NCBI GenBank assembly: GCA_031257295.1
Contig: JAIROX010000001.1
Location: 186,001 to 250,000, forward strand
Length of the DNA: 64,000 nucleotides
Source of the DNA: Candidatus Nomurabacteria bacterium
GTDB lineage: Bacteria; Patescibacteriota; Saccharimonadia; Saccharimonadales; Saccharimonadaceae
Direction of reading: 5' to 3'
Shown: one piece after another, positions 8,347 through 20,683 of the stretch
Layout of the letters: every line of letters starts with the position of its first letter
Position numbering within the stretch: position 1 is the first letter of the stretch
Program-made: the position numbers and the translations under genes
The notes under the pieces: generated by a model
The model's database searches: none
What the model saw: only the letters and a program-made list of their open reading frames with translations
What the model was told of the DNA's origin: nothing

Positions 8347-9054
8347 ATGACTGAAAGGCAAAAACAGATTTTGTTTGCTATTATTGAGCAATACGCCGAG
8401 GTGGCTGTGCCAGTTGGCAGTGTCACGCTAGCCAAGCTGTTTGACGTGTCTAGTGCTACTATTCGGGCCGAGATGGCTAAACTAGAAGAAATGGGTCTAA
8501 TTGAACAACCGCACACTAGTGCTGGCCGCATACCTTCGGACGCTGGCTACCGGCTTTATGTAAATAGCCTATCGGAAGACGGCACCTCAAGTGACACGCC
8601 TAAGCTTAATCGTAGTGCGAGAGCGATTGAGGCGCGCGTGGTCGGTGTGAGCCGAGCCGACCAAGCCATCCGCAGTGCTGTTGATAGCCTGGTGGAGCTA
8701 ACGGGTAACCTGGGCCTAGCTACAATTGGCGACCAGCTTTATATGAGCGGCATAGCCAACTTGTTTGCGCAGCCCGAGTTTGTCAGCAATGGGCACGTAC
8801 AGGCGGTGGCTGGCTTGCTAGATAATCTTGAACCGTGGCTACGTGAGGCTGCGCCCAACGAACCACTCAATGTGTTTATCGGCAACGAAAACCCCATCGG
8901 CAAAGCTTCTGGTGCGTCTTTGATTATTAGCCGTTTTCGTTCGCCATATTCTGATAAAAGCTACATTGGTGTGCTTGGGCCGACCCGCCAAAGCTATGGC
9001 CGAGTGATGCACTTGGTGCAACACGCTGGCGCCATGCTGGAGGAGGCATTGTAA
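8347..9054 (+). CDS. hrcA: Heat-inducible transcription repressor HrcA (short form)
   Basis: DNA-binding repressor of heat-shock genes at CIRCE sites. The N-terminal winged helix is typical (ERQKQILFAIIEQYAEVAVPVGS, then SSATIRAEMAKLEEMGLIEQPHTSAGRIPS). I chose the ATG at 8347, not the in-frame ATG at 8311: the latter lies inside the CIRCE element and upstream of the -10, while 8347 is 7 nt after the -10 and gives a leaderless mRNA. The product is 235 aa, about 100 aa less than usual for HrcA, so the GAF-like effector/dimer domain is reduced. Its stop overlaps the grpE start. Four CIRCE sites in the window define its local regulon. Confidence 0.92.
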   Translation: MTERQKQILFAIIEQYAEVAVPVGSVTLAKLFDVSSATIRAEMAKLEEMGLIEQPHTSAGRIPSDAGYRLYVNSLSEDGTSSDTPKLNRSARAIEARVVGVSRADQAIRSAVDSLVELTGNLGLATIGDQLYMSGIANLFAQPEFVSNGHVQAVAGLLDNLEPWLREAAPNEPLNVFIGNENPIGKASGASLIISRFRSPYSDKSYIGVLGPTRQSYGRVMHLVQHAGAMLEEAL

Positions 9055-9500
9055 TGTCTAAAAAAGATAACCAAAAGGTTACTGAGCTGACGGCTGACTT
9101 ACAGCGCTTACGAGCCGATTTTGAAAACTATCGCAAACGCATGGAAGGCGAAAAGGAGGCCGCTCGGGCTGCCGGCAAAGTGTCGGTGATTTTCCAGGTT
9201 CTGCCGGTGCTAGACGATATCGAGCTAGCCGCTGCTCATGTGCCGGCTGAGCTGGTTGGCGACGACTGGGCGAAAGGTGTGGCTAACTTGACTAAAAAAC
9301 TAGAGAAAAACCTCGAGGCCATGAATGTTCATAGAATCACTGCTACTCCTGGTACGCCATTTAACCCCGAGCTACACGAAGCCGTCACTATGGAAGATGG
9401 CGACGGTGAACACGAAGTGATCGCCGAGGAGCTGCGCACGGGCTATAAATTCGGTGCTGAAGTGATACGCCCAGCTATGGTGCGCGTCAAGCGCCAGTAG
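9054..9500 (+). CDS. grpE: Nucleotide exchange factor GrpE
   Basis: Co-chaperone that drives ADP release from DnaK. It has the short coiled-coil start (TADLQRLRADFENYRKRMEGE, about residues 12-33) and the C-terminal beta domain with the family hallmark (GTPFNPELHEAVTMEDG and the final GYKFGAEVIRPAMVRV). At 148 aa it lacks the long disordered head of larger GrpE proteins. Its start overlaps the hrcA stop (TAATG), so hrcA-grpE is one CIRCE-controlled operon. The partner dnaK lies 6.4 kb away, separated by the accessory block and xfp-ackA. Confidence 0.95.
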   Translation: MSKKDNQKVTELTADLQRLRADFENYRKRMEGEKEAARAAGKVSVIFQVLPVLDDIELAAAHVPAELVGDDWAKGVANLTKKLEKNLEAMNVHRITATPGTPFNPELHEAVTMEDGDGEHEVIAEELRTGYKFGAEVIRPAMVRVKRQ

Positions 9501-9501
9501 C

Positions 9502-9530
9502 TTTACAGATACGAACATCTGTGATATAAT
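9502..9530 (+). promoter_or_regulatory. Promoter of the 9702 gene with inverted repeat in the spacer
   Basis: TTTACA (9502-9507), 17-bp spacer, TATAAT (9525-9530). An inverted repeat ACAGAT-N6-ATCTGT at 9505-9522 fills the spacer and could be an operator. Confidence 0.75.
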
Positions 9531-9540
9531 CTAAGCAAAG

Positions 9541-9701
9541 GGTAGTAACTTAAGATATGCATTCTCTTGTCATCAAGAGTGGCGTTTTGGGTTCTAGCGT
9601 TCTAGAGCTCAGCGCGCCGTTCTTGATGAATATCAAGAGTACTTCGCACGCACCCGGCGTGTCGATACAAGACTGCGGCTGGTCCAAGAAGGAGGTCTGT
9701 T
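9541..9701 (+). promoter_or_regulatory. Structured 5' leader, copy 1
   Basis: Long leader between promoter and gene. It folds into an outer stem of 13-15 bp (9570-9584 with 9615-9629, including two G-U pairs) and an inner stem (about 9589-9597 with 9602-9610). A homologous leader with compensatory changes precedes the gene at 10527. Before the start codon both share a TGCGG-x-TG block and an AAGGAGG ribosome site. It may be a regulatory RNA or a stability/translation element. Confidence 0.7.
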
Positions 9702-10154
9702 ATGGGAACAGATAATAAAACTTTCGAAGGTGAATACTTCGAAAAGCTAAGATGGTTGGAGAAACGTTGTGCCGAGAAGGGGCTGACGTTCAATGATCAT
9801 CTGACTGGCTACGGCTGGTCGGTAAGCGCTCACCCCAACGCCAAATGGCCCATTAGCCAATCTTTAGGTCCAAATGATCTTAAGATGGTGGAGGAGAGCT
9901 CTATCGATACTGTTCGCCAGGCGGATGTGATACCATCGATAGAGGTGCTGCTCCTCTTCTGTCTTTATCTGGACGCGTGCCCCGTTGGCTTGCGCGTAGC
10001 ATCACCCGGTTTCATATTAACCCGGGAAGATGCAGACACGGGGATAAAAGAAGAAAAGGTTTTAGTCGTCGGCCGAGATAGTGACGGAGTCTACATCGAT
10101 GGCCAATACCAAAACCTGCTGTCCTTTTACGAGACGGCAACATTTTCCGCATAG
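9702..10154 (+). CDS. Unknown accessory protein, distant relative of the DGR-type target at 10527
   Basis: 150 aa, no family recognised. The ATG at 9702 follows a strong AAGGAGG site. No signal peptide or TM helix is seen. The C-terminal third runs in parallel with the end of the next gene's product: 'SPG' then hydrophobics, RDSDGVYIDGQ against RDSVEAYVNDNW, ending ETATFS against YSTVAFR. I read this as a diverged paralogue carrying the same terminal fold, but its DNA is too different from the template repeat to be a recent homing target. It has its own promoter, structured leader and terminator. Its C-rich codon choice differs from the heat-shock genes around it, which suggests acquired DNA. 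Confidence 0.6.
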   Translation: MGTDNKTFEGEYFEKLRWLEKRCAEKGLTFNDHLTGYGWSVSAHPNAKWPISQSLGPNDLKMVEESSIDTVRQADVIPSIEVLLLFCLYLDACPVGLRVASPGFILTREDADTGIKEEKVLVVGRDSDGVYIDGQYQNLLSFYETATFSA

Positions 10155-10165
10155 CACTTTTTCAA

Positions 10166-10197
10166 GAGCCGTCGCTCCATGCGGCGGTTTCTTTTTG
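10166..10197 (+). terminator. Rho-independent terminator after the 9702 gene
   Basis: GCCGTCGC, loop TCCAT, GCGGCGGT, followed by TTCTTTTT. Confidence 0.8.
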
Positions 10198-10218
10198 CCT
10201 CGAAACGGTGCTTCACTA

Positions 10219-10247
10219 TTGACTTTTTAAACTACTTATGCTACAAT
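10219..10247 (+). promoter_or_regulatory. Promoter of the DGR-type target gene
   Basis: TTGACT (10219-10224), 17-bp spacer, TACAAT (10242-10247) preceded by TATGC. The block from -35 through the spacer is almost the same as in the tRNA-Lys promoter at 21159-21187. Confidence 0.85.
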
Positions 10248-10526
10248 GTACCTACATGGGGATATTAGCCCCATGTAGGTACCAGATATAACTAATAATC
10301 GCACGTTTTAATGCGTGTATACACGCATATTTGTTTGTTAAAACAAATATGCCAAGGTTTAGTGTTGGTTCTGGTAAGTAACTTAAAATGTTTACTCCCT
10401 TATCAAGGGCGGCGTCTTGGGTTTTGCTAGTTAAAACCCGGCCCGCCGCCCTTGATGAAAGTTGAGGGTTTTGATGCCACAAAGGCGTTGAAATATAGAT
10501 GCGGTGTGTCTAAAAGGAGGCTTACC
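10248..10526 (+). promoter_or_regulatory. 280-nt structured leader of the DGR-type target gene, copy 2
   Basis: Four hairpins in series start near +1: a perfect 14-bp stem (10248-10261 with 10269-10282), a self-complementary ATGCGTGTATACACGCAT (10311-10328), an 11-bp stem (10326-10336 with 10341-10351) that competes with it, and the conserved element (outer stem 10402-10414 with 10444-10456, inner stem GGGTTTT/AAAACCC about 10420-10438). It ends in an AAAAGGAGG site before the ATG. This accounts for the 372 bp without a gene at 10155-10526. Confidence 0.75.
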
Positions 10527-11276
10527 ATGGCTAAGGACAATATTATCCGTTATTTCAACCAGCGTAACGAGCTGGATAAGCTTGTAGTGGCTGGAGATCG
10601 TGACCCTGAGGTAATCCGCCCGCATCTGCAGGCAATTATCGATGGGACTGCGCTGCAGACCAAGACCATCCCCTGGTCCCCAGTCTGCACCTACGTGCAG
10701 AAGATCGCGAAGCGTAACGCTGAGCGTGACTGGGGATTGACTGACACCCGACTCTTAGAGCTGGCTGTCAAGTTGCAGGACCACGCTGGCCCACTCCAGC
10801 CCGAGAGTATAACCCTCACACTGGGCAAGGGCCTTGCGCATGACTGGGCCGAAGCAGCCGCTTGGGCCAAAGACGCCCTAGCGGAGATCGGTGTAGATTT
10901 CACCGACTATCCGCAGAAAAACGGCGCGTCGGTCAAGCTCTATGGTGACATCACGTTACCGAATGAGCTAAAGCTCGCTCCTGCCCATCTAGATCTGAAA
11001 AAGTACTGGGACCGTGAAAACGGCACTAGTGCTGACCAGGTGCGTGCCATTGGCCAACGCCTGACGACACTCGAAGCCTATTGGCTCCTATGTCTCAACC
11101 CTGAGGTGTGGGACGCCATTGACTACGAAACTATGCCTGGGCTGATAAGCCCTGGCGTGGTCGTGGGCGACGACAACGTTCTGAGCTTCGAGCGTGACAG
11201 CGTTGAGGCTTATGTCAACGACAACTGGTCTGTCAATCAGTGGCACGACTACTCGACTGTCGCCTTCAGGGGGTAA
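10527..11276 (+). CDS. Unknown protein with C-terminal variable repeat: putative diversity-generating-retroelement target
   Basis: 249 aa. I chose the ATG at 10527 because an AAAAGGAGG site lies just before it; an upstream in-frame ATG at 10452 falls inside the leader hairpin. There is no signal peptide or TM helix. Residues 1-200 are helical-looking and unrecognised. The last about 40 residues are aromatic/Asp/Asn-rich (EAYVNDNWSVNQW, ending STVAFRG), like the C-terminal variable region of C-type-lectin-fold DGR targets, which end in a similar hydrophobic-F-R motif. The DNA encoding this end (11151-11271) is repeated at 11527-11647 with only A-directed differences. Codon use is C-rich, unlike the neighbours. 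Role unknown; a variable binding protein is inference. Confidence 0.75.
   Translation: MAKDNIIRYFNQRNELDKLVVAGDRDPEVIRPHLQAIIDGTALQTKTIPWSPVCTYVQKIAKRNAERDWGLTDTRLLELAVKLQDHAGPLQPESITLTLGKGLAHDWAEAAAWAKDALAEIGVDFTDYPQKNGASVKLYGDITLPNELKLAPAHLDLKKYWDRENGTSADQVRAIGQRLTTLEAYWLLCLNPEVWDAIDYETMPGLISPGVVVGDDNVLSFERDSVEAYVNDNWSVNQWHDYSTVAFRG
11151..11271 (+). repeat. Variable repeat (VR) of a putative diversity-generating retroelement
   Basis: About 121 bp at the 3' end of the 10527 gene, aligned without gaps to 11527-11647 (offset 376). Nine mismatches: positions 11166, 11167, 11185, 11190, 11203, 11233, 11244, 11250, plus the marginal 11272. The VR base is G, G, G, G, T, T, C, T, G; the other copy has A at every one. 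The last 19 bp are identical, as expected of the homing-initiation end. Confidence 0.8.
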
Positions 11277-11311
11277 TCTGGACCTAGGTTCTTGGAGCCT
11301 TGGTTCTTTGT

Positions 11312-11334
11312 CGAGCCGCACTATGTGCGGCTCG
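11312..11334 (+). other. GC-rich hairpin downstream of the variable repeat
   Basis: CGAGCCGCAC, loop TAT, GTGCGGCTCG: a perfect 10-bp stem 40 bp after VR. It may terminate transcription, although no T-run follows directly. It may also be the downstream hairpin/cruciform known to aid target recognition in studied DGRs. Confidence 0.7.
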
Positions 11335-11526
11335 CTTCCATTTTGATATGATAAACGTGGTGCTTTGCCTCTGCCGGAGCTTGGCTGCTTACGGGCTGCC
11401 AGGGAGCGCAAGTAAGGTTTTACCGAACACTCCGTGCAATCACTGGAAACAACCGACGTTTCGCAAAATATACAAGGCCCGGATGCGTCTAGGCCTGGTG
11501 GCATTGATGGTGGTTGTACAATTTCG

Positions 11527-11647
11527 CCTGGCGTGGTCGTGAACGACGACAACGTTCTGAACTTCAAGCGTGACAGCGATGAGGCTTATGTCAACGACAA
11601 CTGGTCTGACAATCAGTGGAACGACAACTCGACTGTCGCCTTCAGGG
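11527..11647 (+). repeat. Template repeat (TR) of a putative diversity-generating retroelement
   Basis: Second copy of the VR, in the 420-bp non-coding stretch 11277-11696. In the VR reading frame it is rich in AAC codons, which adenine mutagenesis can diversify without making stops. It lacks a start and ribosome site of its own; the short open frame over it (11434-11676) is best read as template, not gene. No reverse transcriptase or Avd-like gene is adjacent. Apart from TR and the hairpin at 11312, I see nothing else firm in this stretch. Confidence 0.78.
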
Positions 11648-11696
11648 ACTGTTTGGTATGGTGGTCTGTCGCCTAAGCGTGTGATAAAATATATCC

Positions 11697-14033
11697 ATGC
11701 AAGGGCGGGCAGACTTTCATCATGATATCAAGAAGTTTTTTCGGGCGGCCGAATACTTAACGGTAGCACAAATTTTCTTACAAGATAACTACTTACTGGA
11801 GCGGCCTCTAGAGTATAGAGATATTAAACCGCGGCTACTGGGGCATTTTGGCTCCACGCCCGGTATTATTAAGGCTTATGCGCACCTGAGCGCGCTGATC
11901 AAACGCACTGGCCAAGACATGATGTTTGTGCTCGGGCCGGGGCACGGTTACCCAGGGTTGCAAGCCGCGCTGTTTTTAGAGGGCAGCCTGCAAAAAGTTG
12001 ACCCCAAAGCCACGCTCGACGTAGCTGGCGTTGAATACTTGTGCAAGCAGTTTAGCTGGCCTTATGGCTACCCCAGCCACTCTAGCCCGCTCACACCTGG
12101 CGCCATCCTCGAGGGTGGTGAGCTCGGCTACTGCCTGAGCACGGCTTATGGCTCGGTGCTAGACAACCCAGACTTAGTCACCGCCTGCTTGATTGGCGAC
12201 GGCGAGGCCGAAACTGCCAGCTTGCTAGCGGCTCTCAATCTTGGTAAACTAGTTAGCCCCAAGCACAACGGCGTGGTGCTGCCGATTTTGCACCTAAACG
12301 GCTACAAGATTAGCGCCCCCACCATTTACGGCCGCATGAGTGACAAAGAACTGATTGACTTGTTCACTGGTTTTGGCTACGATCCGGTTATTGTGAACGA
12401 GGGTGAGGAGCCAGGTTTCGACGAGCAAATGGCCGCCGCACTGGACAAAGCAATGGAAACGATCCGCAGCATCAAGCAGTCGCCTGAAGACGGATTTTTC
12501 CGCACGCCGTTTATCGTCATGCGCACGCTTAAGGGTGAAACTGGGCCAAAAGAGTTGAATGGTGAAAAGATTGAAGGTAATTACCTAAGCCACCAAGTGA
12601 TTCTTACAGAGGCTAAAACTGACAAAAACCAACTGGCCATGCTCGAAAAGTGGCTAAAAAGCTATAAGTTCGACGAATTGTTTGACAAGCAGGTAGGCTT
12701 TGGCGATTTTATCAACGCTGTCATGCCAGAGCCCAAAAAGCGTATGGGCCAGAGCAAGCATGCTAGCCAAGAGCCCGAAAAGTTAAAACTCCCTGCGCTC
12801 AGCGGTGACCCTAAGTTTAGGGTGGGAGAGCCGTCGTCGTTGGCAATGAACTCGGTGGGCAAATATCTGCGCGATGTTTTTAAAGGTAATCCGCAAACTT
12901 TCCGTTTTTTCTGCCCCGATGAGACCAGTAGTAATAAGCTCGATGCAGTTTACGAAGCCACCAACCGCGCTTGGTTAAAGCCACTCAAAAGTTGGGATAA
13001 GTTCATGTCACCCGATGGCCGCGTGATTGAGATGCTCAGCGAAAACACTCTGCAAGGTCTATTGCAAGGTTATGTACTGACCGGCCGGCACGGCGTGATG
13101 AGTAGTTACGAAGCTTTTATGCCCATCGTTACTAGCATGGTCGATCAATACAGTAAGTTCTTGGCGCAGGCGATCAAGATCGACTGGCGGCCCGACTTGC
13201 CGTCTATCAACTACGTTCTAACTTCTACTGGTTGGCGGCAAGATCATAATGGTTTTAGCCACCAAAACCCGGGCTTTATTTCCGACATGCTGCTCAGGCC
13301 AAATAACTTAGTTAATGTGTTGTTGCCACTAGATGACAATTCTGCACTAGTAGCCACCGAATTTGCACTCAGCGCCGAAAATTGCATCAATATCATCACG
13401 GCTGGCAAGACTCCCGAAGGTCGCTATCTAAGTCTGGACCAAGCTCGTTTTCAATTGTTAAATGGCGGCGCTATGATATTTGATTTTGTTAGTGACGAGA
13501 AACCGCACGTGGTGCTAGCTGGGGCGGGCGACTATGTTAGCAAGGAAGCCTTGGCAGCTGTAGAGATTGTGCGCCAAGAGGCCCCGCAGGTTCGCTTGCG
13601 TTTTGTGAGCGTGTCGGCATTTAGCTATGGTGCAATTGGCACTAGCAAAATCAAACTTACTAAAGCGCGATTTGACGATATTTTCACACTCGATAAGCCG
13701 ATTGTTTTCACCTTCCATGGCTACCCGAGCACTATGAAACAGATACTATTTAATTACACCACGCCCGAGCGGCTCGATATCCACGGCTACAACGAGCACG
13801 GCAGCACCACCACGCCGTTTGATATGCAGGTGCGCAGCGAGACTGATCGCTATCACTTGGCAATCAGCATCTTTGAACGTGCCGCTGAACAAGGTATAAT
13901 AGGTACAGAAGAGCTGAGTGGGCTGGCCGACAGGTACGCGGCTAAATTGGCTTGGCATCAAGACTATATAAAACAACACGGCGATGATACGCCAGAGATA
14001 AAGGAATGGACATGGAAAAAACCGACCGCTTAA
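11697..14033 (+). CDS. xfp: Xylulose-5-phosphate/fructose-6-phosphate phosphoketolase
   Basis: Thiamine-diphosphate enzyme that splits xylulose-5-P (or fructose-6-P) with phosphate into acetyl phosphate plus glyceraldehyde-3-P (or erythrose-4-P). 778 aa, a full-length XFP. Family blocks: GPGHGYPGLQA (about 81-91), the TPP motif GDGEAETA (about 163-170), the phosphoketolase signature WRQDHNGFSHQ (about 516-526) and SYEAF. The ATG is 6 nt after a TAAAAT box (11685-11690), so the mRNA is probably leaderless. ackA overlaps its 3' end, and acetyl phosphate is passed on for ATP. It sits just after the template repeat, between grpE and dnaK. Confidence 0.96.
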   Translation: MQGRADFHHDIKKFFRAAEYLTVAQIFLQDNYLLERPLEYRDIKPRLLGHFGSTPGIIKAYAHLSALIKRTGQDMMFVLGPGHGYPGLQAALFLEGSLQKVDPKATLDVAGVEYLCKQFSWPYGYPSHSSPLTPGAILEGGELGYCLSTAYGSVLDNPDLVTACLIGDGEAETASLLAALNLGKLVSPKHNGVVLPILHLNGYKISAPTIYGRMSDKELIDLFTGFGYDPVIVNEGEEPGFDEQMAAALDKAMETIRSIKQSPEDGFFRTPFIVMRTLKGETGPKELNGEKIEGNYLSHQVILTEAKTDKNQLAMLEKWLKSYKFDELFDKQVGFGDFINAVMPEPKKRMGQSKHASQEPEKLKLPALSGDPKFRVGEPSSLAMNSVGKYLRDVFKGNPQTFRFFCPDETSSNKLDAVYEATNRAWLKPLKSWDKFMSPDGRVIEMLSENTLQGLLQGYVLTGRHGVMSSYEAFMPIVTSMVDQYSKFLAQAIKIDWRPDLPSINYVLTSTGWRQDHNGFSHQNPGFISDMLLRPNNLVNVLLPLDDNSALVATEFALSAENCINIITAGKTPEGRYLSLDQARFQLLNGGAMIFDFVSDEKPHVVLAGAGDYVSKEALAAVEIVRQEAPQVRLRFVSVSAFSYGAIGTSKIKLTKARFDDIFTLDKPIVFTFHGYPSTMKQILFNYTTPERLDIHGYNEHGSTTTPFDMQVRSETDRYHLAISIFERAAEQGIIGTEELSGLADRYAAKLAWHQDYIKQHGDDTPEIKEWTWKKPTA

Positions 14034-19426: not shown

Positions 19427-20683
19427 ATGCGTAAGTTGTCTGTTGGCTTATTTATAGCTTTGGTATCGTCTTTTGCAGCCACGGCATTAGTGAGCGCCCT
19501 AGCTATAACTAACATCACCCCCAACACTGGCACAGTCAATGGCGGTAATATAGTGACTATTACCGGTAGTGGCTTTGAACCCGACGTCCCAGCATTACAG
19601 AATTTTGGTGCTGACAGGTGCACCACAATGACCGTATATAATGGCAGCAACATCGGTGCGCTCTTAGTTCTCAAAGACACTCGTGGCGGCCAAATTTACA
19701 CCGTTGGTAAATTAGCCGACGGCAACTGTTGGATGTTGAACAATCTCAAATTGGGCTCGGAAACCAACTCAACACCGCTTACAACAAGTGACACCAACAT
19801 TACGCGCAACTGGACATTGCCTCAAGTCAGCGGTGCAGCAGTCTCGTATAGTTACACCGCCCCCTTGGTTTTCACGTATAGCCCACAATCCAGCGACATC
19901 AACGACCCAACTTTTTACGGCTACTACTACAACTGGTGTGCTGCTACTGCTGGCGACCCAGCCACCTGTACGGCTAGTGGTGTCACGCCGGCTGATGCTA
20001 CCCAGGACATTTGCCCAGTCAATTGGCGTTTGCCGCGAGGCGGTCCCGACACGGACGCTAATAATGAATTCTCTCAACTTAGTGCCGCTATGGCCGGTGT
20101 AAGTTTCAGTAGTTATGCTAACGACTGGACCATGAAATATGCCGCCAACTGGCAATTTGACGGGCCTTTTAGAGGTGTTTTCTCTGGTGGTTATGGGAAT
20201 AGCGACCAAGGTACTATTGGCACCTTGTGGTCTTCGTCGTATTCGCGTTATTCCGCACCTAGCCAAGCGCACTTCTGGTACCTAGGTGCGACGTTCGTCG
20301 GCCCCGAAGGCTCGGCCAGTCGCGGCTACCCATACTCGGTGCGTTGCTTGGCTAAAACTGGCACTGTTGATACTAATCCGCACTACGATTTGAAGCCGTC
20401 TGTGACCGTGGGCGGTGCAGCGGTCGATGCGGGTGATGTGGAGGTGGTTTCTGGTACCGAGTTGCGGGTGAAGATGCCGGCGCACGCGGCTGGGGTGGTG
20501 GATATCGCAATCACTTTGGGTGGCGTTTCGCAAACTGTCCAGTACGAATATCTTCCTAGCGCGCCGAATACTGGTGTGGGCAGAATTACAACCGATATTG
20601 TGGTAGTAGAGATTGGCGCAGCAATCGTGGCGTCCCTAGGTGCCACACTCGCCTGGCGCAGGCTGGTGCGCAGCAAGCGCTAA
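19427..20683 (+). CDS. Surface protein: IPT/TIG domain, FISUMP-like domain, LPxTG-like anchor
   Basis: 418 aa. Signal peptide at residues 1-28 (VGLFIALVSSFAATALVSA). An IPT/TIG beta-sandwich start (ITNITPNTGTVNGGNIVTI, about 27-45) is followed by a FISUMP-type region (about 60-310) with paired cysteines and the hallmark 'DGNCWMLNNL', 'CPVNWRLP' and 'SVRCL'. A short beta domain leads to a sorting signal: SAPNTG, a hydrophobic helix, then RRLVRSKR. The motif is a variant of LPxTG, so covalent wall anchoring by a sortase is likely. Expression is probably switched by the G9 promoter. Likely an adhesin or host-contact protein (inference). Confidence 0.82.
   Translation: MRKLSVGLFIALVSSFAATALVSALAITNITPNTGTVNGGNIVTITGSGFEPDVPALQNFGADRCTTMTVYNGSNIGALLVLKDTRGGQIYTVGKLADGNCWMLNNLKLGSETNSTPLTTSDTNITRNWTLPQVSGAAVSYSYTAPLVFTYSPQSSDINDPTFYGYYYNWCAATAGDPATCTASGVTPADATQDICPVNWRLPRGGPDTDANNEFSQLSAAMAGVSFSSYANDWTMKYAANWQFDGPFRGVFSGGYGNSDQGTIGTLWSSSYSRYSAPSQAHFWYLGATFVGPEGSASRGYPYSVRCLAKTGTVDTNPHYDLKPSVTVGGAAVDAGDVEVVSGTELRVKMPAHAAGVVDIAITLGGVSQTVQYEYLPSAPNTGVGRITTDIVVVEIGAAIVASLGATLAWRRLVRSKR

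Follow-up and report, generated by a model that had tools for sequence, protein, structure and literature searches.

The Target Gene and Its Two Repeats

The window analyzed here is a stretch of 64,000 nt (C1:186001-250000) from genome G000, a MAG of 747,608 bases in 6 contigs that is 97% complete. The locus of interest lies between grpE and xfp and comprises a target gene with a hairpin leader, a variable repeat (VR) at the 3′ end of this gene, an inverted repeat, a terminator-like hairpin, a structured RNA, and a template repeat (TR), all on the forward strand (table 1). The last position of this part, assigned below to a diversity-generating retroelement (DGR), is 11657, some 10 nt beyond the TR, and xfp begins at 11697.

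Table 1.— Features of the target and template locus, in window coordinates.
Feature	Position	Strand	Remarks
5′ leader of target gene, strong hairpin (arms 10402-10425 / 10433-10456)	10377..10459	+	Kept in same-genus relative
Target (variable protein) gene, 249 aa	10527..11276	+	No family match in Pfam, NCBIfam, or PHROGs
VR (variable repeat)	11151..11271	+	3′ end of target gene; repeat alignment
Inverted repeat just 3′ of VR	11282..11304	+	DNA fold; position comparable to stem-loop 3′ of IMH in BPP-1
Terminator-like hairpin, between target mRNA and template RNA	11312..11334	+	10-bp stem, T-rich tail
Structured leader of template RNA	11360..11522	+	163 nt, 50 bp, 7 helices
TR (template repeat)	11527..11647	+	31 A's, zero at third codon positions; repeat alignment
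IMH*-like TR 3′ end, 17-nt TTCAGGGACTGTTTGGT	11641..11657	+	Only other genomic copy C4:73379-73395

The first-pass annotation had aligned the two repeats without gaps, and this alignment was recovered with 93% identity over 121 nt. As it had claimed, the downstream copy carries A at every mismatch; the count is 8 rather than 9, however, because the ninth (11272 G vs. 11648 A) falls just outside the repeat and the adjoining position (11273 G vs. C) is not A-directed. All eight mismatches thus stand opposite an A of the TR (A>G 4, A>T 3, A>C 1), which with 31 A's in 121 nt is indeed very unlikely by chance (hypergeometric p = 8.8e-6, or 7e-5 once any base and either copy are allowed for). The identical 3′ end that had been noted extends over the last 21 nt, not 19, up to a GGG that is followed by GG in the VR and by AC in the TR, the IMH / IMH* feature of DGRs.

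In the frame of the target gene, the A's of the TR number 12, 19, and 0 at codon positions 1, 2, and 3 (p = 3.5e-7; 40 third positions), and therefore each sits where a change usually alters the protein. The seven codons that differ between TR and VR (N>G, N>S, K>E, D>V, D>V, N>H, and N>Y) are all nonsynonymous without a single stop, and the VR ends 2 nt ahead of the stop codon of the gene. The annotation's reading of the pair as TR and VR is upheld by the A-directed differences and the codon-position design, by the DGR reverse transcriptase (RT) and Avd that the genome encodes, and by homologous DGRs that are complete in relatives. Together with the conserved DGR leader RNA, the same evidence refutes an ordinary tandem duplication or gene conversion with no DGR involved, which is practically excluded even though two direct repeats do lie close together. 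A genome-wide repeat search found no further copies of the VR/TR pair in the rest of the genome, nor, at the sensitivity used, a remote VR for the window TR.

Homologues of the target are encoded in 11 of the 394 genomes of the family. Profile–profile comparison matches it to RT-linked DGR targets (prob 95, E 2.8e-8), whereas the same profile against the PDB gave chance hits only, and a single-sequence pattern scan found no close relatives in GTDB contigs or IMG/VR. The C-type lectin or Ig-like fold of the variable domain that the first-pass annotation had envisaged was not confirmed: profile searches gave no hits, and the AlphaFold models had low confidence (pLDDT 41 from the single sequence and 37 from a four-sequence alignment), too low to base a fold search on. 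The product is probably a binding protein, as had been proposed, and DGR targets of the CPR are reported to be without recognizable domains (Roux et al., PMC8144416).

Downstream of the VR, the DNA fold of 11262-11356 has a z of -4.1 for the whole stretch, terminator included. A hairpin similar to the one at the VR is present in the same-genus relative (L028), which matches 10306-11310 at 70% by blastn.

A Structured RNA Upstream of the Template

The interval between terminator and TR aligns to the VR–TR interval of complete loci in relatives. Folding an alignment of five sequences with RNAalifold gave 50 pairs in this leader, 17 of them with a compensatory change. With ten sequences, 94% of cells are paired, against 37-48% in all slid controls, and 32 of the 50 pairs have changed on both sides; this set includes two weak partial matches, and its alignment is biased toward the model. 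A covariance model built from the five sequences also matches genomes outside its training set, namely G050 (E 7e-34) and DGRs of Parcubacteria (L089, 3e-16; L091, 0.004). An Rfam search of 9000-12500, leader included, returned no match. The leader is a covarying structured RNA that has been kept in the window locus.

Reverse Transcriptase and Avd Lie on Another Contig

RT, TR, and VR in one locus are typical of DGRs but not required, and remote and trans-acting cases have been published. The claim of a DGR cassette in the window had to be given up: the window is not a complete one, because there is no reverse transcriptase within it. Neither RT nor avd lies near the repeats, and both occur instead at a single remote locus that has no template of its own.

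This locus, on contig C4, holds the only RVT_1 match in the genome. The best PDB match of the encoded RT is 8ub7 (E 1e-41), which we take to be the BPP-1 DGR RT, followed by a group II intron RT (3e-19); the aligned motifs are IPLGNVTSQ (LGxxxSQ, catalytic SQ) and YCDD (YxDD). On these grounds it is a DGR-type RT. The avd gene is antisense to the RT gene, slightly overlaps its start, and is the single copy in the genome; its product of 122 aa matches Pfam bAvd (PF22296, E 2.4e-18) and phrog_3206, "Avd protein of DGR" (1.9e-20). Both genes are intact, and their excess of third-codon-position differences to relatives indicates constraint at the codon level. Relatives of the RT in viral contigs reach only 32-36% identity and the pattern scan gave no close viral relatives of the target, so that this is not an obvious prophage system.

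Upstream of avd and RT on C4 lies a second target-like gene, target2 (L001:198-938), for which no template copy was found anywhere in the genome at the sensitivity used. It is joined directly to a TR-side flank, the 17 nt TTCAGGGACTGTTTGGT also listed in table 1, after which avd and RT follow, and this joint is the only sequence common to the window and C4 halves. Neither locus is complete, TR and VR being on C1 and RT and avd on C4.

Similar hairpin leaders were observed at 9544-9629 (ahead of a gene of unknown function at 9702), at 10377-10459, and at L001:1-130 (ahead of target2), and they also precede both targets in the same-genus relative G040. Those ahead of 9702, 10527, and target2 are possibly a shared regulatory RNA or a cassette boundary.

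Complete and Decayed DGRs in Relatives

Other Saccharibacteria, including UBA6572 and Ca. Microsaccharimonas sossegonensis, have RTs 55-62% identical to the one on C4, in loci with the order target (VR), leader, TR, avd (antisense), RT. Four complete loci have both VR and TR (L066, L068, L070, and L086), and the three that were scored show A-directed differences of 12/12 before the repeat edge, 14/15, and 16/16. In all four, the antisense avd lies between TR and RT, and its C-terminus runs into the 3′ end of the TR. Measured against this order, the window retains target1 (the 10527 gene), leader, and TR, and C4 retains target2, avd, and RT. A conserved segment that separates TR from RT in the relatives was also considered as a BPP-1-like spacer RNA; this was rejected, as the segment proved to be avd, read from the opposite strand.

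Decayed DGRs are plainly frequent in this clade. In G220, the RT is a fragment that contains a stop; G050 (L143, contig C40) has the leader, TR, and about 180 nt of avd but no RT, on a contig that ends just upstream of the leader so that the target is missing; and Ca. Microsaccharimonas sossegonensis (G142) and G008 carry target–TR fusions. In these fusions (L067, 4712-5044 oriented, and L069, 4434-5237 oriented), the target runs into a single A-rich TR copy, with avd and RT after it, so that these DGRs have just one repeat.

This record, to which the mere TR remnant of G040 can be added, speaks for the chief rival of the split DGR proposed below, an explanation in which a complete cassette diversified the VR in cis and then, very recently, lost avd and RT by a deletion reaching up to xfp; TR and VR would be a fresh fossil, and the C4 RT unrelated or dead as well. 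Such a recent loss in cis would leave the same picture as a split DGR, and the BPP-1 mechanism requires RNA 3′ of the TR. We nevertheless regard this explanation as unlikely: the RT and Avd on C4 are intact and constrained, the target1 locus of the same-genus relative likewise lacks avd and RT, and the time available for such a loss is short, as the following comparison indicates.

Recent Activity and the Same-Genus Relative

The nearest relative is G040, another species of the genus (86% complete). At fourfold-degenerate sites of xfp, ackA, hrcA, grpE, and the target, 52-64% differ between G000 and G040, whereas VR and TR are identical at 90 of 90 non-A sites although one copy is noncoding. 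The last homing event is therefore recent on the scale of the divergence from G040. With no change in about 90-120 free sites, the upper bound would be about 3%, which would place the event in the final few per cent of the period since the species diverged, and a deletion of avd and RT would have to fall in roughly that same interval.

The target orthologue of G040 shares 63% amino acid identity with the 10527 product. At codon positions 1 and 2 the two genes differ at 13 of the 31 template-A sites versus 6 of the 50 others (p = 0.003), so the same template-A sites vary in G040. The expectation of the first-pass annotation that changes in related genomes would favor the template A's is thus matched in the one same-genus species compared, and the third positions have drifted. 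In the VR of target2, differences between the two genomes are distributed over the codon positions as 13/17/11, versus 13/12/25 upstream, a pattern that is again characteristic of DGRs.

In G040, the target1 locus occupies another chromosomal place, beside a gene that is presumably UTP-glucose pyrophosphorylase-like, and consists of the target with half of the leader and a TR remnant. Because it too has neither avd nor RT, the RT-less state of the target1 locus may be older than the species split. The target2 locus of G040 is also without avd and RT and ends in a VR-type flank.

An assembly or population artefact, in which the cassette is complete in the cells but the MAG consensus left out hypervariable repeats or misjoined two loci, is very improbable. 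Population-variable repeats are hard to assemble and the genome is a MAG of 6 contigs, which leaves a small chance of an assembly error; however, both loci are far from the contig ends (197 kb into the 262 kb of C1 and 74 kb into the 135 kb of C4), the flanking genes (grpE and xfp at the window locus, rpsA at the C4 locus) are the same in G040, and the shared 17 nt are too short for usual assembly k-mers.

We also considered an inversion that swapped both loci at the 17-nt joint and judged it unlikely; the grpE to xfp flanks and those of C4 are both collinear with G040.

The interval between grpE and xfp is a variable insertion spot. In G040, the two genes are neighbors across the insertion site with one unrelated gene between them, a gene of 1175 aa on the opposite strand (L074:2339-5866); in G000, this position is taken by the 9702 gene together with the DGR half.

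A Probable Split DGR

Our preferred reading is that the window is the template and target half of a split DGR, on whose TR the remote RT and Avd of C4 act in trans; we consider this probable. It is supported by the A-directed TR/VR pair, the sole RT and sole Avd elsewhere in the genome, and the conserved leader RNA, and further by the complementary losses (leader and TR at the RT locus, avd and RT at the TR locus) and the recent homogenization of the non-A sites. The window would supply the RNA part, structured leader and TR, as a transcript of its own after the terminator, and also the VR with which the 10527 gene ends. RT and Avd would be made from the one remote locus on C4 and act in trans; they would make cDNA of the TR RNA, erring at A, and this cDNA would replace the VR, so that the C-terminus of the 10527 protein would be continually varied. 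We infer that the C4 pair is what acts on the window TR and that it still does so.

In BPP-1, it is the RNA downstream of the TR, termed Sp, that recruits RT-Avd and also primes the synthesis of cDNA (PMC12875486). A structured spacer of this type is absent directly 3′ of the window TR in cis. On its 3′ side, the part of the 17-nt joint that does not overlap the TR leaves only about 10 nt, so a mechanism like that of BPP-1 would not work here unless the upstream leader does the job. In this clade, avd occupies the 3′ side of the TR, on the other strand, whereas the structured RNA lies 5′ of the TR and is the part that the window retains. A more specific reading, for which we see the case as evenly poised, is a functional two-locus DGR in which a mobile RT-less "satellite" module of target, leader RNA, and TR is diversified in trans by a template-less RT-Avd locus, with the upstream leader, not a downstream spacer, recruiting the RT and positioning initiation.

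Comparison with Known Systems

By its features rather than by a tree, the system resembles the cellular DGRs of the Patescibacteria/CPR (DGR clade 2; Roux et al. 2021, PMC8144416), which share the A-directed TR/VR pair, a DGR RT, a cellular rather than viral setting, and a small, soluble-looking target with a C-terminal VR and no known domain; it differs in that RT and avd lie away from the TR/VR locus. BPP-1, a Bordetella phage, has a homologous RT and Avd, A-directed changes, and an inverted repeat after the VR. Its avd is in sense and upstream of the TR and its structured RNA downstream, whereas here the structured RNA is upstream and avd, antisense and downstream in the relatives, is absent at the window TR.

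Trans action of DGRs has precedents in Thiohalocapsa (PMC10907252) and Pseudogulbenkiania (PMC3521204). Thiohalocapsa PB-PSB1 likewise has RT-less or TR-less degenerate DGR loci within one genome, and identity at non-A sites was likewise used there as an argument for trans action; each class keeps one complete locus, however, whereas none is complete here and template and enzymes occur only apart. DiGReF (PMC3521204) describes "inverted" DGRs and the remote VRs of Pseudogulbenkiania sp. NH8B; RT and TR need not share a transcript. In NH8B, one of the RTs of a duplicated DGR has disappeared, and distant VRs are served by the enzyme that is left. One RT there stays with its TR, and a separation of TR and RT was not described, whereas here it is the TR that is remote.

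Targeted self-mutation of the DGR type is known; what is of moderate interest here is the split, which had escaped the first-pass annotation, and the structured RNA upstream of the template. If RT-Avd indeed uses a template RNA from another locus that has hardly any sequence 3′ of the TR, the requirement derived from BPP-1, a downstream spacer in cis, would not be valid for all DGRs. The 163-nt upstream RNA would then be a candidate recruiting element and the module a portable template for targeted mutagenesis, and surveys that demand an RT beside the repeats would miss DGR targets in CPR genomes.

Elsewhere in the window, the product of 19427-20683 looks secreted and has a FISUMP-like domain (TIGR02145, E 2e-8, short of the family cut-off).
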